Position numbers and translations under genes: made by a program. Source: Secundilactobacillus similis DSM 23365 = JCM 2765 (GTDB lineage Bacteria; Bacillota; Bacilli; Lactobacillales; Lactobacillaceae). From it: 45,627 bases of DNA. The DNA is taken from NCBI RefSeq assembly GCF_001311075.1, contig NZ_BBAD01000019.1, forward strand, positions 1 through 45,627, read 5' to 3'. Shown piece by piece: positions 1,704-33,587 of the stretch. The notes under the pieces are model-generated. The model was not told the DNA's origin. It did no database searches and worked only from the letters and a program-made list of their open reading frames with translations. Numbering within the stretch: position 1 is the first letter of the stretch; each line of letters opens with the position of its first letter.

Positions 1704-3094
1704 ATGTCCACAACTAGTGAATTTGATACGATTGCGGCCGTTGCTACGCCACCTGGTGAGGGTGGAATCTCGATTATTCGGATCAGTGGTGAACGGACGT
1801 TTGAAATTGTTGCCCCATTATTTAAAGGGAAGTCGTTGGCGGATGTTGCCAGTCATACGATCAATTATGGTCACATTATTGACCCTGAAACCGGCTCTGA
1901 AGTCGATGAAGTTATGGCATCCGTGATGCGGGCGCCTAAGACTTACACGCGCGAAGACGTTGTTGAAATCAACTGTCACGGTGGTTGATGGCCACTAACC
2001 AAATCTTACAGCTCATTTTAAGCCAAGGGGCGCGGTTAGCCGAACCTGGTGAATTTACCAAACGGGCCTTTTTGAATGGTCGAATTGACTTATCCCAAGC
2101 AGAGGCCGTTATGGACCTTATTCGGGCGAAAACCGACCGCTCGATGAAAGTTGCCTTAAACCAGCTAGACGGGAACCTGTCGCGCTTAATTAAGCATTTA
2201 CGGCAAGATATCTTGGAAGTACTAGCACAAGTTGAGGTCAACATCGATTATCCTGAATACGACGATGTGGAAACGATGACCACAAAGTTGTTGCTGGAAA
2301 AGGCGCAGGAGGTTCAAGCGTCAATTACCCAACTGTTGAAGACTGCTAAACAAGGCAAAGTCCTTCGTGACGGCCTGGCAACGGCCATTGTTGGTCGGCC
2401 CAACGTTGGTAAATCCAGTCTGCTGAACGAATTACTCCACGAAGATAAGGCCATCGTGACCGACGTTGCCGGGACGACTCGAGATGTGATCGAAGAATAC
2501 GTCAACGTTGGTGGGGTGCCACTGAAACTGGTTGATACTGCCGGTATCCATAAAACGGATGATACGGTTGAAAAAATCGGGGTGGAACGCTCAAAAAAGG
2601 CGATTGCGGCTGCTGATCTGGTGGTGCTAGTCTTGAACGCTAGCGAACCGTTAACGTCGGAAGATCGCCAATTGTTGACGGATATGGCCGATGAAAAGCG
2701 GATCATCATCCTCAACAAGACGGATTTGCCACTTCAACTCGATTTAGGCGAATTACAACAGTTGGCGGGTGACACGAAGATTATCCAAACATCGATCCTG
2801 CAAAATAAGGGGGTTGATCAGCTGGAAGCCGAAATCAGCCACCTGTTCTTCGATGTTGGTATCGAAACCGGTCGCGGTAACGTGATGGTGACCAATGCCC
2901 GGCACATTGGCTTATTAAACCAAGCCAGCCAAGCCTTGGACGATGTCATGAACGGGATTGCAGCTGGCATGCCAGTTGACCTCGTTCAAATCGACATGAC
3001 CCGTTGCTGGAACCTATTGGGTGAAATTACCGGCGACAGCTACCAAGATGAACTACTAGACCAACTCTTCAGTCAATTCTGTGTTGGTAAATAA
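1704..3094 (+). CDS. mnmE: tRNA uridine-5-carboxymethylaminomethyl GTPase MnmE (frameshifted here)
   Basis: With MnmG this protein installs the cmnm5 group on the wobble uridine of certain tRNAs. The start ATG follows AAGGAGG at 1690-1696. Seen: the N-terminal folate-binding domain ([21 protein letters not shown]), the helical domain, a G domain with GRPNVGKSS (P-loop), DTAG and NKTD, and the C-terminal catalytic FCVGK ending. The frame breaks near 1986, after INCHGG: adding one T (ggt-ttg-atg) restores a continuous protein of 463 residues, the normal family length. I read the break as a one-base sequencing deletion. The gene is followed 54 bp later by mnmG. Confidence 0.95.
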
Positions 3095-3148: not shown

Positions 3149-5063
3149 ATGCCTGAGATTCAACCTTACCAGGGTAAGGACTTTGACGTGATCGTCGTTG
3201 GTGCTGGCCACGCCGGTACTGAGGCCGCGTTAGCCGCTGCCCGGATGGGGAACAAGACCCTGTTAATGACAATTAATTTAGATATGGTGGCCTTTATGCC
3301 ATGTAACCCATCAGTTGGGGCCCCGCAAAGGGCATTGTCGTGCGTGAAATTGACGCCTTGGGTGGCGAAATGGGTCGCAACATCGATAAAACCTACGTTC
3401 AGATGCGGATGTTGAACACTGGGAAGGGTCCAGCCGTCCGTGCCTTACGGGCACAGGCTGATAAGCACGCTTACCACGCTGAAATGAAGCACACCTTGGA
3501 AAAGGAACCTAACGTGACGTTACGTCAAGGCATCGTTGACGACTTAATCGTTGAAGACGGGGTCTGCAAGGGCGTTATCACAAATACCGGGGCCCGGTAT
3601 TCTGCCAAGGCCGTCGTCATCGCTGCTGGGACCGCTGCGCGTGGGAAAATCATCATTGGTGAACTCATGTATTCTTCAGGACCAAATAACTCACAACCAG
3701 CGATGAAGCTGACGAAGAATTTGGAAAAGTACGGTTTGGAACTCAAGCGGTTCAAGACCGGGACGCCGCCACGGTGGATGGCAACACGATTCACTATGCC
3801 GAAACTGAAGAGCAACCTGGTGACGTTGAACCAAACCACTTTAGTTACACGACGCCTGACGAGAACTATTTGGCACTTAAAAACCAACTCTCTTGCTGGT
3901 TAACGTACACGAACGAAACGACGCATAAGATTATCCGCGACAACCTAGACCGGGCACCAATGTTTACTGGTGTGATCGAAGGGGTCGGTCCACGTTACTG
4001 CCCATCGATCGAAGATAAGATCGTTCGGTTTGCTGATAAGAGCCGGCACCAATTATTCTTGGAACCTGAAGGCCGGAACACGGATGAATGGTACGTTCAA
4101 GGGTTGTCAACGTCGATGCCAGAAGAAGTGCAACAAAAGATCTTGCACTCCATTAAGGGCCTTGAAGACGCTGAAATGATGCGGCCAGGTTACGCCATCG
4201 AATATGATGTTGTGTCACCTTATCAATTACGACCAACTTTGGAAACCAAGCTTGTGAAGAACCTGTACACCGCTGGCCAAACCAACGGGACGTCTGGTTA
4301 CGAAGAAGCTGCGGGCCAAGGCATCATGGCCGGTATCAACGCCGGTTTGCGGGCCTTGAACAAGGAACCATTCGTTATGAAGCGGTCTGAAGGCTACATC
4401 GGTGTCATGATCGATGATTTGGTCACTAAGGGCACCAACGAACCTTACCGTTTATTAACGAGCCGGGCCGAATATCGCTTGATCTTACGGCACGATAACG
4501 CTGACTTGCGGTTAATGCCAAAGGGTCACGAATTGGGCTTGATTTCAGACGAACGTTACAACGATTTCTTGGCCAAGCGCCAAGCCGTAACGGATGAAAT
4601 CGACCGGTTAAATACGGTTCGCGTTAAGCCATCTGACGAGGTTAACGCCTACGTGATGTCTCACAACGAAAAGCCATTGAAGGATGGCGTGTTGGCAGCG
4701 GACTTCCTCCGTCGCCCACAAGTCACCTACGCGGACTTACTGCGGTTCATTCCAGCGCCAGATGCACCATTGGACCGCCGGGTGATCGAAGAAATCGAAA
4801 TTCGGATCAAGTACGCAGGTTACATCAAGAAGGCTGAGGAAAACGTGGCGAAGATGAAGAAGATGGAAGCCAAGAAGATCCCAGATATGATCGACTACGA
4901 CGCCATCGACGGTCTCGCAACGGAAGCCCACCAAAAATTAAACAAGATCCGCCCAGAAACAATTGCCCAAGCAACCCGAATCAGCGGGGTCAACCCAGCT
5001 GATATTGCGATTTTGAGTGTTTATATTGAGCAGGGGAAGATTGCAAAGGTTAAGAGCGTGTAA
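3149..5063 (+). CDS. mnmG: tRNA uridine-5-carboxymethylaminomethyl modification enzyme MnmG (two frameshifts here)
   Basis: FAD-dependent partner of MnmE in wobble-uridine modification (GidA). ATG follows aggagg at 3137-3142. Seen: an N-terminal dinucleotide-binding motif [12 protein letters not shown], the MPCNPSVG and [15 protein letters not shown] signatures, [19 protein letters not shown], and the C-terminal helical domain ending in [13 protein letters not shown]. The frame breaks twice, at about 3320 (GGGG where five G are needed to give SVGGPAKGIV) and about 3775 (CGG-TGG where CGG-GTG gives PPRVDGN). With one G restored at each site the protein has 638 residues, normal for the family. 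Both sites are G homopolymers, which favours sequencing error over gene decay. Confidence 0.95.
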
Positions 5064-5177
5064 CAAGGCGGTTAGAGACCGAAGCATAAGCCCCTCTCGC
5101 CATAAACCCCGGTTTTGGGTTTGTGCGAGAGGGGCTTATGTGCAGGTCTCTGCCTTGTGGAACGCGTTTCGGCGCGG
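5064..5177. repeat. Long hairpin repeat R3
   Basis: It begins directly after the mnmG stop. The outer helix is CAAGGC/GCCTTG and the inner helix is CATAAGCCCCTCTCG pairing with CGAGAGGGGCTTATG. The apex is ccccggttttggg, and the ggtta bulge is conserved. The hairpin is followed by ggaacgcgtttcggcgc, the outer tail of the family. Confidence 0.85.
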
Positions 5178-5567
5178 TGACCCCAAAACACCACTACTAC
5201 CAAACTTCACAATAGAACTGATAAGCGGAAAGGCGACTCCAAGTGGCACCGAAAATAAAGTAGCCGGAAAGCACGTCGCCAGTAAGCAATTGACGAGTAA
5301 CGAGCTACCGGTTTTGGGTAGCTTCACTTGGCCCCTCCTTATATGCAACCTTCTGCCCTGGTTCACGCATTTCGGCGCGGTGGATTCAAAACACCAATGT
5401 TACCAAACTTCACAATAGAACTGATAAGCGGAAAGGCGACTCCAAGTGGCGCCGAAAATAAAATGGCCGGAAAGCACGTCGCCAGTAGCAGCTGGTGAGT
5501 AACGAGTTACCGGTTGTGAGAGGGCTTACGTACAACTCTCTGCCTTAGGACACGTTTACCAATTCTC
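5162..5567. repeat. 203-bp tandem duplication of repeat material
   Basis: acgcgtttcggcgcggtg at 5162 recurs as acgcatttcggcgcggtg at 5365, and the following ~125 bp are nearly identical (caaaacacca at 5184 and 5387), giving a period of 203 bp. Each unit holds a TTCGGCGC...GCGCCGAA-type outer stem of about 95 bp followed by the right half of a hairpin repeat (gggtagcttc...gccctg; gagagggcttacg...gccttag). There is no left arm, so these are half-hairpins. No gene is supported here. Confidence 0.75.
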
Positions 5568-6992: not shown

Positions 6993-7316
6993 CGTTTGTG
7001 TCCAGCGTAAGTGTGCGGAGCGAGGCGGTTAGAAGGTGGAGTGTAAGCATGACCCAGCGAAGCTACCGGGTTTGGGTAGGTTGGCTGGGTCATGCTTACA
7101 TGCAACCTTCTGCCTCGCGCAGCACCATTCGGCGTGGTGGCCAGAAAGTGCGTGGTTGACAAGTTCCTGCAATGTCAGGAGCCCTAGAAATAACAGTTTA
7201 AGTGGCGCCGAATTTTGTAGTCTGAGAGCGCCGGTTTTCATGCGGCTTTGACGAGCGTAGCGATGACGAACAGCCGACACCCAAATTGCGCCCAATGCTT
7301 ACGCTGAACACAAACG
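6993..7316. mobile_element. 324-bp non-coding element C with 19-bp inverted termini
   Basis: It is bounded by cgtttgtgtccagcgtaag (6993-7011) and its near-perfect inverted copy (7298-7316). These are the same termini as the two 812-bp elements, but the core differs: hairpin repeat R5 (7012-7124) followed by an ATTCGGCG...CGCCGAAT stem domain and about 70 bp more. No convincing ORF is present. Flanks do not show a clear target duplication. A decayed relative in reverse orientation lies at 12078-12390. Confidence 0.7.
7012..7124. repeat. Long hairpin repeat R5 inside element C
   Basis: The outer helix GCGAGGC pairs with GCCTCGC, and the inner helix GTAAGCATGACCCAGC pairs with GCTGGGTCATGCTTAC. 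The ggtta bulge, the gtgga/tgcaa internal loop and the accgggtttgggt apex are present. Confidence 0.85.
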
Positions 7317-10605: not shown

Positions 10606-10679
10606 TGAATTGTGTTTTTTGGAAGTTTGACGTGGAAGCGATGTGCAGTAGGGTGACGTTGGTGCTTTTAGGCAACCGT

Positions 10680-10809
10680 GTCGAAACGTGCTCCGAAAAG
10701 CAAAGACCTGCACCTAAGGGCCTTCCACCACAACCCCCAAAACCGGGGCTTCTGGCGAAAGGCCCTTAGGCTCCGGTCTTTAACCGCTTTTCTCCGCACA
10801 CTCTGCTAC
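10680..10809. repeat. Long hairpin repeat R6, at the pepC stop codon
   Basis: The outer helix GAAAAGC pairs with GCTTTTC, and the inner helix CCTAAGGGCCTT pairs with AAGGCCCTTAGG. The apex is cccccaaaaccgggg. The terminal GTAG (minus strand) contains the TAG stop of the PepC-like gene at 10808-10806. Confidence 0.85.
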
Positions 10810-12146
10810 ATCAACGGATCCCACGGTGCCAATTCAACTGGCTCTGTTTCTAATAATGCTTGCTGTTCGGCCGTCAGGTACTTCTTGTGAACGACCACTT
10901 CGTAAACGAATTGGTCCATCCAGTCATCGGTCATGACGAAGTAGCCTTTTTCGCCGTTCTTTTCACCCCAAGAGTTTTCGACCTTCCAACGGTTAGGTTG
11001 GCCGTCAACTAGGTTAACGCCGGTCAGCGTCATTGCGTGGGTCACTTCGGCTTCATGGTAGGCAAAACGGTGAGCTTTATCCATTGTGAGGTCGATGCCA
11101 AATAGTTCCGCGCGTCGGAAGAGGTTGGCGTCAAGGAAGCCTTGTTCACGACTCATTTGCTGAAGCACGTCGTTCCCAAACCAAATCGTTTCGCCGTCTT
11201 GAAGTTGTTGGATGGCAGTTTGCTTGAGCACGTCCATGTCAACGTTCAAGAATTGGATCTGCTTGCCACCAACGATGTTTTCCTGACTCGCTAGCCGGTA
11301 CAGTTTGTTTAATGGCTTATCGGGTGAGTTAGTGACGACGACATAGTCATCGAGATCGACGCCAAAATACTTATCGTAGAAGCCTTGAGGGGTCAAACCA
11401 GCGTCGCGATGTAGTTGCTTATCATCGTCACGATATTCGAGGTCAAAAGTTGCCGGTGGTTCGCCAAAGGAGTAGGCTGCCATGCGGTAAACTTCGCCGA
11501 CCATGGTGTGGCGCTGTTGATCTAACTCGGCTGCTGAAGCACCATTGGCTGCCGCATCACGTAAGGTAACAGCATCACGGCGCATCTTCAACGCCAGGGT
11601 TGAGGCAAATGCTTTGGTGTGCTCTGAGTTGTAGGTTTCAGGCATCACGTAATCAGGCACCACACCGTATTTTTGAACTAACGCCGCGGCCATAGCCCAT
11701 TGACCACCGTCGCCGCCAGCCATTTTGAGGTAGAAGGCGACTTCCCGGTCGTTCGGGCCCTTATCAGCGGTGTCGATGATGTGCTGGTAGAACATGTTGG
11801 CGCGCTCAACCTTATCCCAGAAAAACAGGTAGTTTTGGGAGAGTTCAAAGTCCTTAACCTTGTTGGTAGTCGCAAATTGATGACGCAACGTGTTCAGAAG
11901 TGAAAATTCCCAACAGCGGCCACTTTGCTTCTGGTTAGTCACACCGCCAGTTGGCAATTCAACGGAAAATACCCGGTGCAACCGCGATTGTGCTGCTGGA
12001 TCAGTTGCGGCAGCATCAACACCATTGGTCATCACAGCGCGCTTGATGACGTCGCTGGCAGGTTGGCTTGCAACTATCTGGGTTCCGGTGTAAGTGTTAA
12101 GTGCGTGATTTGAGTGTTGGCTGTTTGTCGCCGCTTCGCTTGCCAA
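10806..12146 (-). CDS. pepC: C1 cysteine peptidase (PepC / bleomycin hydrolase family), both ends altered by repeats
   Basis: Cytoplasmic papain-like peptidase of the PepC/PepE/PepG family, used by lactobacilli to trim peptides taken up from protein-rich media. Seen: catalytic Cys in QKQSGRCWEF (C78 of the listed ORF), His in EAEVTHAMTLTG and Asn in WKVENSWGEK. The first ~20 codons (from a TTG at 12146 without a good ribosome binding site) lie in repeat material, so the true start is uncertain; family similarity begins at about ASQPASDVIKRAV. The C-terminus ends APWDPLM, where PepC proteins usually continue (WDPMGALA), because repeat R6 supplies the stop. In PepC/Gal6 the C-terminal tail limits the active site to aminopeptidase action, so this form may act as an endo- or oligopeptidase, or be decaying. 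Confidence 0.85.
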   Translation of the reverse strand: MASEAATNSQHSNHALNTYTGTQIVASQPASDVIKRAVMTNGVDAAATDPAAQSRLHRVFSVELPTGGVTNQKQSGRCWEFSLLNTLRHQFATTNKVKDFELSQNYLFFWDKVERANMFYQHIIDTADKGPNDREVAFYLKMAGGDGGQWAMAAALVQKYGVVPDYVMPETYNSEHTKAFASTLALKMRRDAVTLRDAAANGASAAELDQQRHTMVGEVYRMAAYSFGEPPATFDLEYRDDDKQLHRDAGLTPQGFYDKYFGVDLDDYVVVTNSPDKPLNKLYRLASQENIVGGKQIQFLNVDMDVLKQTAIQQLQDGETIWFGNDVLQQMSREQGFLDANLFRRAELFGIDLTMDKAHRFAYHEAEVTHAMTLTGVNLVDGQPNRWKVENSWGEKNGEKGYFVMTDDWMDQFVYEVVVHKKYLTAEQQALLETEPVELAPWDPLM

Positions 12147-12390
12147 AGCCGCTGTTAAAAGCGCTCGTTCAAGTTACGAAATTCGGCGCCACTGGGACTG
12201 TTATTTCCAGGGTTCCTGGAGTAGTTAGAACTTGTCAACCACGCGCTTTATGGCCACCACGCCGAATGGTGCTGCGCGAGGCAGAAGGTTGCATGTAAGC
12301 AAGGCTCAGCCAACCTACCAAAACCCGGTAGCTTCGCTGAGCCTTGCTTACACTCCACCTTCTAACCGCCTCGCTCCGCACACTGCCTAC
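12078..12390. repeat. Decayed element D (reverse relative of element C), including hairpin R7
   Basis: Aligns in reverse orientation with element C (6993-7316) over nearly its whole length: gtaagtgttaagtgcg, ggctgtttgtc, caaagccgc, attcggcgccact, ccacgccgaatggtgctgcg. The terminal inverted repeats are decayed (gttccggtgtaag against gttcagcgtaag). The left side overlaps the apparent 5' end of the PepC-like gene, and the right side ends at the hom stop codon. Confidence 0.75.
12267..12390. repeat. Long hairpin repeat R7
   Basis: The outer helix GCGAGGC pairs with GCCTCGC, and the inner helix GTAAGCAAGGCTCAGC pairs with GCTGAGCCTTGCTTAC. The apex is accaaaacccggt. The GTAG end supplies the hom stop codon TAG at 12389-12387. 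Confidence 0.85.
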
Positions 12391-16725: not shown

Positions 16726-17558
16726 CTACGCTGTCATTTCGCGAGCGAGTTGGCGGTAGTAACCAAGGGATTGGGGGTCTAATCGGAGCGTTTCTGCGAT
16801 GGTGCTATCCGATTGGGTTGAATGGGTCAACAGGTAGTTCACGATGGCACTCTGGTAGAGCCGGGTTGGTGTTAGCGGGAAGCCAAGTACCTTTGCATCG
16901 GGTTTGAGGTACTTGTGGAGTCCGGGCGAGGTGAGGTGCGGATCACCGCCAAAGCGCTGCTTCAAAAAGAGGTCCTGGCTGTGTTGACGTTGCTGAATGG
17001 TTGAATGAATTGCTGATATCGTTGCCAAAAGTCGGCTTCTGCGCCGGTAAGGGTGGTTGCGTCAAATTGGTCGTAAAAGCCAGGCGTTAAGAATTCTTTG
17101 GCCGGATAAAAGTGACTCAACAAAAGTAAACTCAACCGTGTATAAACGGCCAACGTTTCGTTAGCTAAAATATCGGGTAGTAGGTAAATCCATTTAGTTG
17201 ATGGCGTTTGTAATTGATCGTGTGATTTACCCTTTAACGTCACGGTGGGGTACTGCGGGATCAAATCGTGTGTGAAGAGGTATTTGAAATAAATGTTAAT
17301 GTGGGATAACACTTTGTTGTAGGTCCCGTTCGTAACTTGTCGTTCGTTGACTAGCATCGCGAGGTATTGCTCAACGTCGCGGTCTAATAGTGTTGCGACC
17401 CGGTGATCACGTTGATAACCGGTGTTGAAGTCGCTGAGGTAGCGGAACAGGTCGGTGAGGACCGAACTGTACTCGTCAATGGTGGCCTGTGCCAGTTCTT
17501 GAATGGTGAGGTACTGCTCGAAACTGTCCTGATAGGGATATTGGTTGGTGTGAGCCAT
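16726..17558 (-). CDS. Tyrosine-recombinase-like (XerD-like) protein (frameshifted here)
   Basis: Resembles the phage-integrase/Xer family: an N-terminal SAM-like DNA-binding core (SFEQYLTIQELAQATIDEYSSVLTDLFRYLSD...; NGTYNKVLSHINIYFKYL) and a degenerate C-terminal part (GFPLTPTRLYQSAIVNYLL...SLGYYRQLAREM). The catalytic HxxR is not intact (RLYQ at that position), so the protein may be a DNA-binding relative without strand exchange, as in the XerD-like proteins of lactic acid bacteria. The frame breaks near 17005; one missing base joins IQPF to QQRQHSQDLF and gives 277 residues. A perfect palindrome (17575-17593) lies just upstream, over the ribosome-binding region. Confidence 0.7.
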
Positions 17559-18426: not shown

Positions 18427-19266
18427 TTAGGAATTGCTGACGGTTGACTGACCAGTTTGGTAATCGATCGTCGCACCCGGTTGGACGTTGAAAATGTAGA
18501 TATTGAAGCGAATTTGTTGACTACCGATGGATTCAGCCTGCATGTGAACGCCACGGGCGAGTAGTTCGGTATTTCGAAATACCGGTGTGACCTGATAGCG
18601 GACGTAATCGCTCGGGTGCGACTTCAGGTAACTCGCAACGTCGGATTCGTAGTTTTCCATGCCCGGTGCGTTGAGTGATCGGGTGCCGGTCATCAGGTTC
18701 TTCGGGTTGTTATTTTGCCCGGTGAGCTGGTAACCAATCAAATGACTTCTATTATAGAGCCAGTCAGTTTTACCCTGATAGGTGATGCGCTTGTTGTGCC
18801 AGCCGGTTGGTGAGACGTAGAGCGGTTCGCGTTCAGCGGATGGCATGAGCGACTTGGCAAGGAGAGCGTCTGCACCGGTGACCCGGTTGAGTGAGTCAAG
18901 GTTGTGGTATTCTTGCCAGGCGCCTTTGCTGGTGCTCAGTTGTGCTTGTGTAAAGGTTGGCTGATCACCATTCACTTTGACGATTTGCTGATTTTTGTAG
19001 GTGAGGTTGGCCAGTTGACTAGTGCTACTGGCGGTAGTTTTACCGGTAGTCGTACTATTTGAATTCTTAGTGTCTGAACCGCCAGTAACCGACTGGATCA
19101 CGGACTGGGCTTTTTCCCGCCAGGCGGGTTGGCTGCTACTTGTTGCAGCTGTGTTTGATGATTGATTGCCGTTATCGCCAGTCGTCGAGACGACCCCGAC
19201 AATAATGGCGACAAAGACAACCAGATACGTGAAGACGGAACCTTTCCGTCGACGCCTTCTTGGCAT
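18427..19266 (-). CDS. endA: DNA/RNA non-specific endonuclease, EndA-like
   Basis: A 279-residue membrane-anchored nuclease related to streptococcal DNA-entry nuclease EndA, which degrades one strand during DNA uptake or releases nucleotides from external DNA. Seen: a basic N-terminus (MPRRRRRKGS), one transmembrane anchor (about residues 11-27), a Ser/Thr-rich linker (28-85), and a catalytic core with DWLYNRSHLIGYQLTG (His of the DRGH-type site, here NRSH) and NLMTGTRSLNAPGM (metal-binding Asn). ATG follows AGGAGG. Element A lies 77 bp upstream, so its promoter must sit in that short gap or within the element. Confidence 0.88.
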   Translation of the reverse strand: MPRRRRRKGSVFTYLVVFVAIIVGVVSTTGDNGNQSSNTAATSSSQPAWREKAQSVIQSVTGGSDTKNSNSTTTGKTTASSTSQLANLTYKNQQIVKVNGDQPTFTQAQLSTSKGAWQEYHNLDSLNRVTGADALLAKSLMPSAEREPLYVSPTGWHNKRITYQGKTDWLYNRSHLIGYQLTGQNNNPKNLMTGTRSLNAPGMENYESDVASYLKSHPSDYVRYQVTPVFRNTELLARGVHMQAESIGSQQIRFNIYIFNVQPGATIDYQTGQSTVSNS

Positions 19267-19343
19267 GGTGAATTCCTCCTGTTTATGATGATGTATTTAG
19301 TTTAACAGGAAACGTATGTTCGTGCGAGTGAATTTTTAATTGT

Positions 19344-20155
19344 CGCTTGTGTCCAGCGTAAGCATTCTTGTGTTTAGTTTGTGAAGTGAGATTTGTGTGA
19401 ACTGACGATTCCGGTAAGCGACTAGGTTCCTGCTGTGGGGCCGGTCTGAGCCGAAGAGCGGTCTCAGACCTCAAATGTAAGCCTCGCCAAGCCCCGTGCG
19501 AGTCTTACATTTGTCCCCGATAATTGGCGGTTGTTGGAAGACCATCAACAACCACCAATTATCGCGACACAGCATACACCTAGTCGCTTACCTGCATCTC
19601 ACGTTGCGCAATTCGGCACTATCGCAGAATATCTCAAAACGCGTTGAACGGCAACGTTAGCTTATCAAATCAGCACAAACGTGACGGTCAACTGATGAAG
19701 CTCAGCATCACGCAACCGTTGATTCATTGCGGTTACTAAACATTGACCATAATTGCTTCTGCAGTTGTCGAGTTATCGTCTAATGTTGCCGGTAGACAGT
19801 TTCGTCAACTTCAACATGTGACAGTCAACGGTTCTGGTTGCCAACAGCGCACCATGTAGCGGGAGGTGGAGGCGCGCGAGGCTCAGCAGTGTCGGTATGA
19901 CTTAAGCAGTCGTAGTCCGCGGGGTTCGGGCTGCGAGTGCTTTAGTCATACGCGGGTCCGGAGAGATCCGGCACGGAAGTGGTCTTCTTCCGTTCCTAGC
20001 TCGTAGGCCCGCGACCCAGCGAAGCTTGGAAGCCTATCTGGCCACTGCGTTCCAGCCTCGCATAGCGCTGGAACCTCCCGCGGCATTCTCCCACTATTAG
20101 AAAACCAGAATCACTGAACTTCACAAACTAAACATACTTACGCTGGACACAAACG
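19344..20155. mobile_element. 812-bp non-coding structured element, copy A
   Basis: Bounded by inverted repeats cgcttgtgtccagcgtaag (19344-19362) and cttacgctggacacaaacg (20137-20155). Copy B at 32036-32850 has the same core in reverse orientation. No ORF is shared by the copies. The left domain is a branched structure closed by CGGTAAGCGACTAGG (19412) with CCTAGTCGCTTACC (19579); it holds hairpins at 19441-19470, 19473-19512 and 19519-19564. The right domain is closed by GCGGGAGGT with ACCTCCCGC and holds GTATGACTTAAGCA/TGCTTTAGTCATAC and ACGGAAG/CTTCCGT hairpins. No transposase is encoded. Confidence 0.75.
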
Positions 20156-20250
20156 TAAGAAAAATATGTTCAACACATCAAAAACCAGTACAATAGAAAC
20201 GGCAGTAAGATTCATAATAGTAATAACGTAACTCAGAAAGGAATAGACAG

Positions 20251-21123
20251 ATGCGATTAGGGAGTATTGAAGCCGGCGGGACGAAGTTTGTTTGTGCCGT
20301 TGGTGATGAACAGTTTCACGTGTTAGACCGGACGCAGTTTCCAACGACAACGCCGGCGGAGACGTTAGCGAAAACGGTGGCGTATTTTAAACAATTTGAG
20401 GACGAACTAGATGCGTTAAGCATTGCGTCGTTTGGTCCGATTGAGATTCGATCACAAGCACCACAGTATGGCTACATAACAAATACGCCGAAGCCCAATT
20501 GGCCCTATACGGACTTCTTGGGAACGTTGAAGGCGGCACTAAACATACCGATTTATTGGACAACGGATGTGAATGGGTCGGCATATGGTGAATACGTGGC
20601 GTTACCAGAGGCGCAGCGGCCACGATCACTGGTGTATTTTACGATTGGTACCGGCGTTGGGGCTGGTGAACTCGTGAACGGCGACTTTTTGGGTGAATTA
20701 GGGCACCCAGAAGTGGGGCACGTTCGTTTGAAGCGGCACCCGGATGACTTAGATTTTGCGGGCATCTGTCCCTACCACGGCGATTGCTTGGAAGGCTTAG
20801 TTGCGGGGCCGACGTTTGAAGCTCGGTTGGGGAAGCCCGGTGTTGAAGTGCCACTCAGTGATCACGTTTGGGATATCATGGCCTACTATATCGCGCAGGC
20901 GGCGGTTCAAGAAACGCTGATGTTGCGACCCAATAAAATTGTCTTTGGTGGCGGCGTCATCAGTGAACCATTCATGGAAAAGATTCGGGAACAGTTTGCG
21001 CAATTAATGAATGGCTATGCCGAAGTGGGGGCGTTGACCGACTACCTCACGATGCCGGTCGTTCCTGAAAATGGCTCAGCAACGGTTGGTAATTTTGCAC
21101 TCGCAAAACGACTTTTAGGGTAG
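20251..21123 (+). CDS. scrK: ROK-family fructokinase
   Basis: A 290-residue sugar kinase that phosphorylates fructose (possibly also mannose) with ATP in the cytoplasm. Seen: N-terminal ATP phosphate loop GSIEAGGTKFVCAVG, the sugar-binding region TTDVNGSAYGEY, FTIGTGVGAGELVNG, and the ROK zinc site ELGHPEVGHVRLKRHPDD with CPYHGDCLEG (His and three-Cys type region), then KIVFGGGVIS. ATG follows AGAAAGGA. It is alone, without sucrose transport or hydrolase genes nearby, so its pathway role is to feed free fructose into glycolysis or the phosphoketolase pathway. Confidence 0.9.
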   Translation: MRLGSIEAGGTKFVCAVGDEQFHVLDRTQFPTTTPAETLAKTVAYFKQFEDELDALSIASFGPIEIRSQAPQYGYITNTPKPNWPYTDFLGTLKAALNIPIYWTTDVNGSAYGEYVALPEAQRPRSLVYFTIGTGVGAGELVNGDFLGELGHPEVGHVRLKRHPDDLDFAGICPYHGDCLEGLVAGPTFEARLGKPGVEVPLSDHVWDIMAYYIAQAAVQETLMLRPNKIVFGGGVISEPFMEKIREQFAQLMNGYAEVGALTDYLTMPVVPENGSATVGNFALAKRLLG

Positions 21124-21262: not shown

Positions 21263-22384
21263 ATGAAACTGAGACGATTAAGATGGTTAATGGTCAGTTT
21301 CATGAGTGTTTTAGTTGGTTTAGCACTTGTTCGGCCGTTAGGGGCGGCTGCCAAGTGGGTCGTTGTGCACCAAGCGTCATCCGGGCTGGTCGTGCACCGG
21401 TCAAGTATGCGCCGGGTTAACAACAGCCGGGTACACTACGTTAAAGTACCCAAGTCATATGCGCACGTTAAGAAGACGAGCGCCACGCATGAAATTAAGG
21501 CAACCAAGGGTAAGGCGGTCACGTTTAAGACCAAATACCTGTTGCCATACCCTGGTAAAAATGGTCAACGCTGGGGGAATCCTCAGTCGATCGCCATTTC
21601 CAAGAGTAATTATATGTATATCGTGTATTGTCCAACCAACGTTAAGAACCGTGGTCGAATCGTCCGGTTTGATATGGCGTTGTTAGCGAAGCTTGGCGTG
21701 GACAAGTCACCGAAGGTATTGCAGTCGGCTTACGTGAAGCACCATGGTCGGTATTCAGCAAGTCAAAAGCGGATCCAAAAGGCCATTAAGGTTGGCCCAA
21801 CGTTTACGACGGGTCACGGGCAGTCATTAGCTTACAACTACAAGACAAAAGCCTTATACATGTGGCGTGATACGGAAAAGAGCGCCCGAGTCCCAACGAG
21901 TATGTGGGGCGTTATTCAGCACATTGATTCTAAATCTTTGCGGCCAGACCGAGCAGTTCGGTTCCGGTTAGCCTCTGGCGGGATGCGGGTACCAGGTGGC
22001 CACACCTTGGCATTTGATAAATCCGGTAACGCCTACTTCTGGAGTAATCCGGGAATCGGCGGCTACGTCTATAAAGGAAAGATTAGCGCGCATCACGTCA
22101 AATTCCGGCTAACGAGTCAGATTTTAAGACATATTCCGGGCACCCGGATTCAAAGTATGGGCTATAATCCAGTGCGTCACCGGCTATACATGGTGTCGGA
22201 TGGCTCAATCGCAAGCTTCCCAACCAAGCGACTTAACGGCCGTGGCTCACTGACGAATGGCAGTTTCGAATGGTCAGGCTTGTCACCAAAGCGTGAGTTA
22301 GAAGGCTTGGCCTACGATAGTGCGGGTCATGGCTACTTGCTGACGAATCATAATCCGGAAGTGTTGGTGGCGAATAAATATTAG
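21263..22384 (+). CDS. Secreted protein with repeated beta-propeller-like segments, unknown function
   Basis: A 373-residue exported protein. Seen: a basic n-region (MKLRRLRW), a hydrophobic core and a signal-peptidase site near PLGAAA-KW, then a Lys/Arg/His-rich mature part. Repeated SLAYNYKTKALYMW, TLAFDKSGNAYFW, SMGYNPVRHRLYM and GLAYDSAGHGYLL segments look like blades of a beta-propeller. ATG 21263 follows GGGGAG. Similar extracellular proteins occur in lactobacilli, but I cannot name a function. The TAG stop is directly followed by hairpin repeat R8. Confidence 0.75.
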   Translation: MKLRRLRWLMVSFMSVLVGLALVRPLGAAAKWVVVHQASSGLVVHRSSMRRVNNSRVHYVKVPKSYAHVKKTSATHEIKATKGKAVTFKTKYLLPYPGKNGQRWGNPQSIAISKSNYMYIVYCPTNVKNRGRIVRFDMALLAKLGVDKSPKVLQSAYVKHHGRYSASQKRIQKAIKVGPTFTTGHGQSLAYNYKTKALYMWRDTEKSARVPTSMWGVIQHIDSKSLRPDRAVRFRLASGGMRVPGGHTLAFDKSGNAYFWSNPGIGGYVYKGKISAHHVKFRLTSQILRHIPGTRIQSMGYNPVRHRLYMVSDGSIASFPTKRLNGRGSLTNGSFEWSGLSPKRELEGLAYDSAGHGYLLTNHNPEVLVANKY

Positions 22385-22516
22385 AGTGCGGAGAGAGGCG
22401 GTTAAAGAACGGCGTGTAAGGTGACTCCAGTGAAAGCGCCCGGGTTTGGCGGTTTTACTGGAGTCGCCTTACACATCGTTCTTTGCCTCTCGGAGCACAT
22501 TTAGTCTCGAGGACAG
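22382..22516. repeat. Long hairpin repeat R8
   Basis: It begins at the TAG stop of the secreted-protein gene. The outer helix GAGAGGC pairs with GCCTCTC, and the inner helix GTAAGGTGACTCCAGT pairs with ACTGGAGTCGCCTTAC with one G-U pair. The tail tttagtctcgaggaca is shared with R9. Confidence 0.85.
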
Positions 22517-22554
22517 CAACGAGGTTACGCTAGATCAACCACAAAGCAAAACCA

Positions 22555-29913: not shown

Positions 29914-30750
29914 ATGGATAAACAGCTCAACAAACGGAAGATGAACGTCAAACGCTTGGTCGTTAAAGTGGGGACGAGCACCTTGGTTTACCCGAGCGGC
30001 GGTTTGAACTTAAACGCGATCGACCAACTGGCCTTCGTATTAAGTACGCTCTGCGGTCAGGGTAAGGAGGTTATTCTCGTTTCTTCTGGTGCGATTGGCG
30101 TTGGCTTGAATGCACTCCGGTTGGGAGAGCGACCCAAGGACATTTCAGCGCAACAGGCGCTGGCTGCGATTGGGCAAAGTAAGCTGATCACGCTGTTTAA
30201 TCAGCGGTTTAACCACTATAATCAAACGATTGGGCAACTGTTGCTGACGCACGATGTGTTCGATTTTCCGGCTAGCACGCAACATGCGCTGGATACTTTC
30301 GACCGCCTCTTGAAGATGCACATTGTACCAATCGTCAATGAAAACGACTCCGTTGCCGTGGACGAAATGGATCACCGGACCAAGTTTGGTGATAACGACC
30401 AACTGTCAGCCATTGTCGCCACCCGGACGGAAGCCGATTTATTGATCATGTTATCGGATATTGAAGGCTTTTACGATGCTAACCCGATGACCCACCCAGA
30501 TGCCAAGATCATCCCAACGATCCATACGATCGACGACGAAACGTACGCGGTCGCTGGCGGGAAGGGCAGTATGTATGGCACTGGTGGTATGATCACCAAA
30601 CTCACAGCAGCGGAACTGATGTTGGCGGACCAACGGCAGATGATTTTAGCCAGTGGGGCCGATCCAGCAATTATCTTAGACATCTTGAATGGTGACCCAA
30701 TTGGAACCTGGTTCACCCCCGAACAGAAGGGAGCGGTTAAAAATGGCTAG
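29914..30750 (+). CDS. proB: Glutamate 5-kinase
   Basis: First step of proline synthesis, ATP-dependent phosphorylation of glutamate. 278 residues from ATG 29914 (ggatggg at 29899-29905 lies upstream; ATG 29902 and 29941 are alternatives). Seen: the amino-acid-kinase motifs VKVGTSTLVYPSGGLN, ILVSSGAIGVGLNAL, PIVNENDSVAVDE and FGDNDQLSAIVA, and the C-terminal GGKGSMYGTGGMITKLTAA. The PUA domain of longer ProB proteins (such as the E. coli enzyme) is absent, as in other lactobacilli. The proA start codon lies inside the last codons of proB, indicating translational coupling. Confidence 0.93.
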   Translation: MDKQLNKRKMNVKRLVVKVGTSTLVYPSGGLNLNAIDQLAFVLSTLCGQGKEVILVSSGAIGVGLNALRLGERPKDISAQQALAAIGQSKLITLFNQRFNHYNQTIGQLLLTHDVFDFPASTQHALDTFDRLLKMHIVPIVNENDSVAVDEMDHRTKFGDNDQLSAIVATRTEADLLIMLSDIEGFYDANPMTHPDAKIIPTIHTIDDETYAVAGGKGSMYGTGGMITKLTAAELMLADQRQMILASGADPAIILDILNGDPIGTWFTPEQKGAVKNG

Positions 30751-31986
30751 TGACTTAACAACGATGGGGCAAGCTGCCCAAACAGCGGAAACCCAATTGG
30801 CCCAGTTATCAACGACGCAACGAAATGCCGGTTTAACGGCGATGGCGCAAGCGTTAGTTGACCACCAAGACGTTATCTTGGCGGCCAATCAGGCGGATTT
30901 GACATCAGCTACGGACCTGAAGGAAAGCTTCGTTGATCGGTTGACCTTAACGGCAGACCGCATCGAAGCGATGGCTGAAGGCATGCGCCAAGTCGCCCAG
31001 TTGCCAGACCCAATTGGGAGTGTCGATAAGATGTGGAAGAACGAAGCCGGCTTAATGATCGGTAAGCAACGGGTGCCACTCGGCGTTATCGGCATTATCT
31101 TTGAAGCCCGGCCAAACGTGACCGCGGATGCGGCAGCACTCTGTTTTAAGAGTGGGAACGCTGTGATGTTACGTGGTGGTAAGGAAGCCATCCAAACCAA
31201 CATTGCGGTGAGTGACGTGCTCCGCCAAGCGTTGACGGATAACGGCGTGGACGCCAATGCGATTCAACTCGTTCACGATACCTCCCACGAAACGGCGAGT
31301 GAAATGATGGCGTTGACGGGCTACTTGGACGTGTTGATTCCTCGTGGCGGCCGTGGGTTGATCCAACGGGTCGTGCAACAAGCAAAGGTACCTGTGATCG
31401 AAACCGGCGCCGGCAATTGTCACATCTACGTGGATGAATTTGCGGAACTCCAGATGGCCATCGATATCACGGTTAACGCTAAGGTGCAACGGCCATCGGT
31501 CTGCAATGCGGCTGAAAAATTGGTGATCCATAGTGCCGTTGCGGCGGATTATTTACCAGCGATTGCGGCCGCCTGCGTGATCAAGGCGTTCAATTACGGG
31601 GCGATGACCGCGCTTGTGCAATCGTACCAGACATGGTTGCGGCAACGGATGCCGACTGGGACGAAGAATATAACGACCTCATCATGGCCGTTAAAGTGGT
31701 CGATTCTGAAGCAGAAGCCATCGCCCATATCAACGCCCACAACACGAAGCACTCTGAGGCCATCATTACCGATAACTATCAAAACGGCCAACGGTTCTTA
31801 CAGCAAATCGACGCAGCCTGTGTTTACATCAACGCGTCAACCCGCTTTACCGACGGCTTCGAATTCGGTTTCGGTGCTGAAATCGGGATTAGCACGCAGA
31901 AATTGCATGCTCGCGGACCAATGGGGCTTAATGAACTGACATCGACTAAGTATATTATTTATGGCGATGGGCAAGTGAGAAAGTAA
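30743..31986 (+). CDS. proA: Gamma-glutamyl phosphate reductase (frameshifted here)
   Basis: Second proline-synthesis enzyme, reducing glutamyl-5-phosphate to the semialdehyde. The ATG at 30743 overlaps the proB stop by 8 bp. Seen: [30 protein letters not shown], the catalytic-cysteine region [17 protein letters not shown], and [34 protein letters not shown]. The frame breaks near 31573: one missing T gives [23 protein letters not shown] and a 414-residue product, normal for ProA. No proC lies in the window. A weak terminator follows, then element B. Confidence 0.94.
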
Positions 31987-31998
31987 TAATGTTAACTG

Positions 31999-32031
31999 AC
32001 ACCTGAACGTGAGTTGTTTGGGTGTTTTTTG
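31999..32031 (+). terminator. Weak intrinsic terminator after proA
   Basis: ACACC...GGGTGT arms followed by TTTTTT. It lies right before element B. Confidence 0.5.
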
Positions 32032-32035
32032 TTGT

Positions 32036-32850
32036 CGTTTGTGTCCAGCGTAAGCATATTTAGTTTGTGAAATGATTCTGGGTTTCTATAGTGGGAAGAT
32101 GCCGCGGGAGGCTCCGGCGCTATGCGAGGCTGGAACGCAGTGGCGGGCCTACGAGCTAGGAATGGGCAAAAACCGCCCATGCCGGATCTCTCCGGACCCG
32201 CGTATGACTAAGGCACTCGCACCTCGAACCCCACGAGGCGCGACTGCCCAAGTCATACCGACACTGCTGAGCCTCGCGCGCCTCCGCCTCCCGCTACATA
32301 GTGTGCTGTTGGCAACTAGAATCTCTGACTGTCACATTCTGAAACTGACGAAACCGTGTAATAAGCAACGCTAGATGGTAACTCAGCAACCACAGAAAAA
32401 ATTGTAATTAACGTTCAGTAACCGCAAGAAACGATTGTAGTCAATGTTCAGTAACCACAATGAGTCAATGGTTGCGTGATTCTGAACTTCATCAGTTTAA
32501 CGTTGCGCTTATGCTGATTTGACGAAGTAGCGTTGCTGTTCAACGCGTTTTGAGATGTTCTGCGATAGTGTCGAATTGCGCAATATGAGATTCCGGTCAG
32601 CGACTAGGTGGAAGCTGTGTCGCGATAATTGGTGGTTGTTGACGAACTTCCAACAACCGCCAATTATCGGGGACAACTTGAAGACTCGCGCGGTTTTTGG
32701 CGAGGCTTCAAGTTGAGGACTGAGACCGCCCTTTGGCTCAGGCCGGCCCCACAGCTGGAACCTAGTCGCTGACCGAAATCGCCAGTTCACGCAAATCACA
32801 TTTTACAAACTCACATCAATGATGCTTAATGCTTACGCTGGACACAAACG
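32036..32850. mobile_element. 815-bp non-coding structured element, copy B (reverse core orientation)
   Basis: Bounded by cgtttgtgtccagcgtaag (32036-32054) and cttacgctggacacaaacg (32832-32850). The core is the reverse complement of element A: gcctcgcgcgcctccgcctc and agtcataccgacactgctg occur in A on the other strand. The branched domain is closed by CGGTCAGCGACTAGG (32594) with CCTAGTCGCTGACCG (32761), and its stem AACTTGAAG/CTTCAAGTT replaces the A-copy AAATGTAAG/CTTACATTT. No ORF is conserved. No transposase is present. Confidence 0.75.
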
Positions 32851-33297: not shown

Positions 33298-33430
33298 AGA
33301 GTGCAGAATAGGGCGGTTAGAGAGTGGAGCCTAAGTTACTTCCGCCAGAAACCCCGATTTTTGGGGTTTGTGGTGGAAGTAGCTTAGGTGCAACTCTCTG
33401 CCCTATGGCGCACGTTTAGTCTCGAGGACA
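33296..33430. repeat. Long hairpin repeat R9
   Basis: It starts at the TAG stop of the small gene. The outer helix ATAGGGC pairs with GCCCTAT, and the inner helix CCTAAGTTACTTCCGCC pairs with GGTGGAAGTAGCTTAGG with G-U pairs. The tail tttagtctcgaggaca is as in R8. Confidence 0.85.
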
Positions 33431-33587
33431 TGAGTACGGTTAAGTAATATCAGCCACAAAGAAATCCACAATCTATAAGACTCTTTTGCCACAATTTCCC
33501 GTTTTTGAGGGTTGTGGTGGAAGTAACTTAGGTGCAGCTTTCTGCCCTGTGGAACACGTTTCGGCTACCAACCAACTTGGTTCAAAA
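33431..33587. repeat. Partial hairpin repeat R10
   Basis: The right half and apex of a further copy (ttttgccacaatttcccg...gtggtggaagtaacttagg, then gcagctttctgccctg) with no left arm, at about 33487-33565. The rest holds no recognised gene. Confidence 0.6.

Follow-up and report, generated by a model that had tools for sequence, protein, structure and literature searches.

Folded repeats bounded by terminal inverted repeats in Secundilactobacillus similis, and a cloverleaf core dispersed among related genomes

Group IIC introns are structured and are inserted downstream of terminators, and the RNAs GOLLD and ROOL have been described in lactobacilli. The elements reported here lie in a window of 45,627 nucleotides (the whole stretch of DNA that was analysed), which is contig 19 of the source assembly (G000; 3.45 Mb, 176 contigs). 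Like the introns, they are structured and placed by terminators, but they have terminal inverted repeats (TIRs), and none of the Rfam intron families reached its gathering score. They share size and a branched fold with GOLLD and ROOL. They differ from these in giving no Rfam match at gathering score, in being dispersed as about 149 TIR-bounded copies, and in a wobble spectrum unlike that of an RNA made from the shown strand.

MITEs are a second point of comparison. The elements are likewise TIR-bounded, non-coding, present in many copies and shorter than 1 kb. On the other hand, no parent transposon was found for them and target-site duplication was not evident. Their interior is also under base-pair selection and is common to repeats in other genera, in which the TIR was not found.

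REP, REPIN and BIME sequences are similar in being high-copy intergenic palindromes, partly in inverted pairs, with no gene of their own. REPs, in an extract of PMC3733652, are hairpins of 20–40 bp tied to RAYT, whereas the core found here spans 140 positions and three hairpins, and a search for Y1 transposases found none in three of the genomes rich in cores. REPs are also palindromes that carry a GTAG or CGTC tag. The repeats resemble REPINs in part of their layout and MITEs in their ends; they depart from REPINs in size and in the link to RAYT.

IS1272 of the IS1182 family, as an extract of PMC4923244 describes it, inserts at terminator hairpins and does not duplicate its target, which gives a precedent; the present elements likewise lie beside terminator-like hairpins, and no target-site duplication was evident by eye in their flanks. 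A derivative of IS1182 type was rejected as a candidate: PF13751 (DDE_Tnp_1_6) gave 0 matches at E ≤ 0.01 in the source genome, and no long ORF was present in A or its relative A'.

Elements A, B and C in the source genome

The features of the window are collected in Table 1. An earlier note, made from the sequence of the window, had placed element A correctly in coordinates and in sequence. It had also assigned 19-bp TIRs to A and to an inverted second copy, B. Both the TIRs and the copy were borne out, the ends of B (32036–32054 and 32832–32850) being identical at 19/19 bases. The three compensatory helices that it quoted between A and B were all present in both sequences. Its branched fold was also supported by single-strand folding energy, with z scores of −17.0 for A and −19.4 for B against 20 dinucleotide shuffles each.

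Table 1. Coordinates of the repeat elements and their parts in the window
Feature	Position	Strand	Basis or remark
Element A, 812 bp, TIR-bounded	19344..20155	+	
Left TIR of A, CGCTTGTGTCCAGCGTAAG	19344..19362	+	
Right TIR of A	20137..20155	-	18/19 bases identical to left TIR
Domain D1 of A, closing stem GGTAAGCGACTAGG/CCTAGTCGCTTACC and three-hairpin cloverleaf	19413..19592	+	
Domain D2 of A, second branched domain, closing stem GCGGGAGGT/ACCTCCCGC	19859..20081	+	
Element B, inverted copy of A	32036..32850	-	78% identity; R1 core at 32610-32760
Terminator-like hairpin and T-run immediately upstream of B	31999..32030	+	by eye
Element C, 324 bp, TIRs as in A, different structured interior	6993..7316	+	
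TIR-less relative of the C interior	12103..12384	-	84% in inverted orientation

Element A has two branched domains. D1 contains the cloverleaf core, which the covariance model R1 (described in the next section) matched at 19427–19577 with 145.6 bits. A has this one core only; the antisense match over the same place scored a mere 16 bits. In D2, a stretch of 37 nt (about 20006–20042) was found again at 95% in two places in a related genome, G004 (loci L044 and L045). D2 may be part of a further family, since these 37 nt recur within another hairpin repeat of G004.

The claim that the copies share no protein also held, as no reading frame was kept across them. The D1 set comprised 51 distinct copies out of 53 domain-spanning BLAST hits. 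In its six frames, the longest open stretch of the worst copy was just 17–30 codons per frame, although certain copies were nonetheless open across almost all 75 codons. The longest ATG ORF was 32–129 aa in the 26 complete A and A' elements of more than 700 bp. A promoter scan of 19250–20300 gave no site inside A and a single promoter-like site outside it (19260–19289), where 1.2 were expected.

The number of copies was estimated from the TIRs. A 20-mer of the TIR, with up to 3 mismatches, gave 289 sites in the source genome (reversed-pattern control, 0). The five bases immediately outside the TIR, RYTKW, were likewise conserved (108 ends), and a 24-mer that included conserved outer bases gave 297 sites (control, 0). 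This number of sites corresponded to about 149 elements.

Fifty-four complete elements were collected, 22 of type A, 5 of A' and 27 of C by best BLAST score, with lengths of 313–335 bp and 705–911 bp. Two of them (L062 and L065) were counted as A' by this score, though they could be aligned along their length to an A-type element. Another 40 TIR sites were partnerless in the loci read, many of them at contig ends; by eye they looked like terminal parts or fragments of A, A' or C. The 54 complete TIR pairs, which come from the part of the TIR sites that was read, included no autonomous copy, and the longest pair spanned 911 bp. Inspection of the flanks by eye gave no evident direct repeat that would mark a target-site duplication.

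A and C had hardly anything in common beyond their ends. This suggested that one mobilising activity may act on several interiors.

A second set of hairpin repeats was also noticed in the window, at 1454–1683, 5053–5487, 10666–10790, 22383–22549 and 33298–33574. Its members are about 61–91% alike, occur in both orientations, and had no A-type TIR within 3 mismatches in any of them. Several genes in the ORF list appear to be split over two or three frames, in the manner of frameshifts (1704–3094, 3149–5063, 16726–17558 and 30689–31986), and would be either pseudogenes or the result of indel errors in the assembly.

The complete elements were mostly found next to terminator-like hairpins. Among the 53 with flanks, 45 had a terminator-like hairpin with a T-run adjoining at least one side (left 27, right 33, both 15, neither 8), against a background of 9% per side in random 60-mers from the same loci. 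TTTT was present at −25 to −6 in 76 of the 108 element ends, and T peaked at −6 to −11 and was near-invariant at −3 (106/108). When ORFs were called crudely, the 54 elements were divided into 18 between convergent genes, 8 between divergent and 27 between tandem genes, with one at an edge. In 24 of 53 cases, the overlap between an ORF from this crude call and an end of the element exceeded 20 bases. Element A itself lies between divergent genes.

G004 was the nearest genome as judged by the neighbouring nuclease (75% identity). In G004, the homologues of this nuclease and of the fructokinase-like gene (both names read from sequence) lie about 110 bp apart on the same strand, with no core between them. 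Compared with G004, the nuclease-like gene next to A has been inverted, and A lies at the breakpoint (window 18427–20251 against locus L258).

The earlier note had proposed a comparison of empty sites. A was absent between the same two genes in G004, but the inversion of the nuclease left no clean empty site. The arrangement would fit an acquisition of A by the source lineage along with an inversion.

In another genome, G011, the spacer after the nuclease homologue (L269, 2275–2765) contains a short stretch resembling the start of the core, GGGCCGGTCCGAG. R1 gave no match in this spacer at E ≤ 1, and the stretch is perhaps a core remnant.

The cloverleaf core in other genomes

When 40 relatives were searched by BLAST with A, three genomes of the genus were weakly matched, chiefly over 90 nt of D1 in G004. 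The loci of the relatives contained stand-alone cloverleafs, with closing stems that were very different in sequence yet paired. In G003 (L032), the closing stem of D1 was seen by eye without the cloverleaf interior.

A covariance model, R1, was built from 22 sequences of three genus genomes, with 140 positions and 29 pairs; in 15 of these pairs, one or more sequences had both bases changed. Counts of R1 matches per genome are lower bounds: at least 87 in the source genome, at least 72 in G004 and at least 151 in G293. Cores were present in 10 of the 15 genus genomes and, under stricter filters, in 49 of 301 genomes of the family, distributed over 10 of 40 genera; the source genome is included in each count. 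The other 5 genus genomes and 252 family genomes gave no R1 core.

The arrangement of the cores was analysed in G293 with 150 matches. All 16 pairs of neighbours less than 700 bases apart were in the order plus then minus. These close inverted pairs take in just 32 of the 150 cores, and the more distant neighbours were mixed (31 −+, 28 −−, 18 +− and 15 ++).

Terminators also adjoined some of the cores outside the source genome. Upstream of 89 such cores, 32 terminators pointed toward the core and 7 away from it, the background being 9%. Downstream, 16 pointed toward the core and 18 away.

Within the source genome, 20 core sites lacked a listed TIR, and 9 of these had no upstream TIR within 6 mismatches. 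A T-run still preceded 7 of the 9 by eye. This set over-represents degraded copies, because its members were picked for the absence of their TIR from the lists.

The TIR itself was not shared in this way. The 24-mer gave only 0–2 look-alikes in each of 396 other genomes of the family. One recurrent variant among them was rejected as a related TIR: 11 of the 12 look-alikes fetched matched it, and all 11 were inside long ORFs, which we take to resemble type I restriction specificity subunits. An exact match to an 18-mer of the TIR was found among genome contigs in one stretch, from a Dehalococcoidia MAG. It had no second good copy within 8 kb and was taken as chance.

Among viral contigs, a 16-mer of the TIR occurred in 11 stretches; R1 gave no match on the one designated L054. 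No plasmid or phage record was matched by blastn of A and one or two relatives. Six stretches in IMG/VR had the loop motif of the core, with an inverted core pair in one only. This pair, in contig L291 (878–1354), scored 63.4 and 37.0 bits.

The earlier note had left a known RNA family as a possibility, and here the search was negative: 0 of 4227 Rfam families, GOLLD and ROOL among those compared, reached the gathering score in the window. At E ≤ 5, only 8 matches were obtained from ten loci; each fell short of the gathering score, and A, B and the cores were not covered by any of them. The family was also not recognised in the open-licence literature on repeats, REPs, MITEs, terminator-targeting elements and structured RNA.

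Covariation and the wobble test

Covariation was tested by a rebuilt form of the R-scape logic (a tree, with parsimony changes dealt to random sites), not by R-scape itself, on MAFFT alignments made without structure. The cross-genus core set consisted of 64 sequences from six genera, obtained from 71 matches by dropping duplicates and those of 100 nt or less. In this set, 15 of 20 pairs covaried, and one pair outside the structure was above threshold. D1 of the source genome (51 copies) gave 6 of 46 covarying pairs and C (25 copies) gave 8 of 54, with none outside the structure in either. Covariation under this tree-aware null supported the fold. Loops and bulged bases between the arms were conserved within the genus, and the loop motif GAGCCRAAGRGCGGTCTC was exact in loci of two further genera.

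A selected RNA strand tolerates G-U pairs but not the mirror A-C mismatches. Events of both kinds were counted on the tree at pairs predicted on both strands, with RNase P from 30 family genomes as the one RNA control. RNase P gave 40 G-T to 5 A-C events. On the shown strand, the core gave 11:28 (p 0.009) and D1 10:24 (p 0.024), and the whole A family gave 37:39. The C family gave 13:8, a lean opposite to that of the core and not significant. The corresponding cell counts at both-strand pairs were 8:42 for the core, 10:27 for D1, 42:41 for A, 15:8 for C and 48:7 for RNase P.

These numbers supersede those from a one-strand fold, which were 157 G-T to 45 A-C in D1 and 50 to 64 in the cross-genus set. 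The G-T excess of D1 was traced to two columns of fixed G-T pairs that the shown-strand fold includes. At unpaired columns, the ratio of C>T to G>A was 72:40 in D1 and 110:106 in the core. The bias in D1 would drive toward G-T, opposite to the observed A-C excess.

G-T was no commoner than A-C in the A family, which suggested that the strand folded in the earlier note is without RNA-like selection. Its suggestion of a large GOLLD-like RNA, if read from the shown strand, was not supported by the counts for the core and the A family against those for RNase P, nor by the position of the promoter-like site outside A. The remainder of its interpretation, a TIR-bounded repeat with a real branched fold and covariation, was retained. 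A DNA structure that serves mobility, the alternative that it offered, is a better fit than an RNA from the shown strand; mobility itself we infer.

The A-C excess in the core could come from an RNA made from the other strand. Overall, we take the wobble and fold evidence to mean that folded DNA is selected; the chief competing reading is an RNA from the opposite strand. In that competing reading, the cloverleaf would be a small RNA or a 3'-end element carried on mobile DNA. On the opposite strand, wobble pairs exceeded the mirror mismatches (28:11 in the core, 24:10 in D1), as this explanation would have it, and strong covariation and conserved loops are also in line with it. By eye, the foot on that strand is often GTAG-like at its start, and the first hairpin has a UUCG-like loop. 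The ratio, however, was about 2.5:1 compared with 8:1 for RNase P, and was lost over the whole A family. Further, no Rfam family was matched at gathering score, the sole promoter-like site at A lies outside the element, and inverted pairing would yield two opposed RNAs per unit. We considered an opposite-strand RNA fairly unlikely.

Alternatively, template switching or gene conversion could correct one arm of a long quasi-palindrome by the other and so keep the helices perfect without selection, in which case the elements would be ordinary decaying MITEs. Whole-pair changes in the core were 132 from one Watson-Crick pair to another and 39 to G-T or A-C, as such arm correction would produce. 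But RNase P, a selected RNA, gave a similar ratio (175 against 45), and the conservation of loops and bulges in the genus and of GAGCCRAAGRGCGGTCTC beyond it also argued against arm correction, which appeared improbable to us.

Possible mobilisation and meaning of the repeats

No transposase that would mobilise A, B and C was found, and no insertion event was seen. REP-type elements moved by a RAYT (Y1 HUH) transposase would fit the intergenic position, the inverted order of some hairpin pairs and the GTAG-like foot seen by eye on one strand, but this was judged very improbable, since Y1_Tnp (PF01797) was not found in the core-rich G004, G293 and G199 (at least 72, 151 and 10 cores) and the single Y1 gene of G000 had no TIR or R1 match within its 3.4-kb locus. 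PF01797 was present in 9 of the 15 genomes searched, namely the source genome and 8 others, some of them core-rich.

We return to selection on folded DNA. A, B and C would be non-autonomous MITE-like elements, with their folded DNA selected and moved or maintained in trans by a protein; we give this reading an even chance. They have TIRs of at least 19 bp and no gene, lie beside terminator-like hairpins, and have been amplified to about 149 copies in the source genome. Their interiors are more than filler: the D1 core is a member of the dispersed family of cloverleaf repeats (10 of 40 sampled genera). The TIR was not found in the other genomes of that family, where some cores form inverted pairs a few hundred bases apart. 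The selected form would be folded DNA, whether a single-stranded hairpin or a cruciform, and would be recognised by a protein acting in trans, as with REP/REPIN hairpins or attC sites. In the source genome, a TIR-using transposase would have spread the modules later.

The earlier note had argued that conserved helices would be unnecessary in a MITE. This is right for ordinary MITEs. The helices in A are understandable, since its core is one member of a far wider family of folded repeats.

A broader reading is put forward tentatively, as somewhat doubtful. The cores may represent a class of mobile structured DNA that is widespread and has no name, consisting of cloverleafs, some in inverted pairs, selected for base pairing across genera. 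They would serve as folded substrates for a recombinase or a genome-organising protein aimed at terminators, and would have been taken over by a TIR transposon in the source species. The repeat may thus be a structured mobile repeat of a new sort.

The core family, with at least 151 matches in one genome, a distribution over 10 of 40 genera and no Rfam entry, constitutes a sizeable gap in annotation. It also makes a general question testable, that is, whether RNA or DNA is the molecule on which base-pairing selection operates in bacterial repeats, and the wobble test set this repeat apart from RNase P. Should the substrate be folded DNA, an enzyme that reads it and has so far gone unrecognised would be expected.
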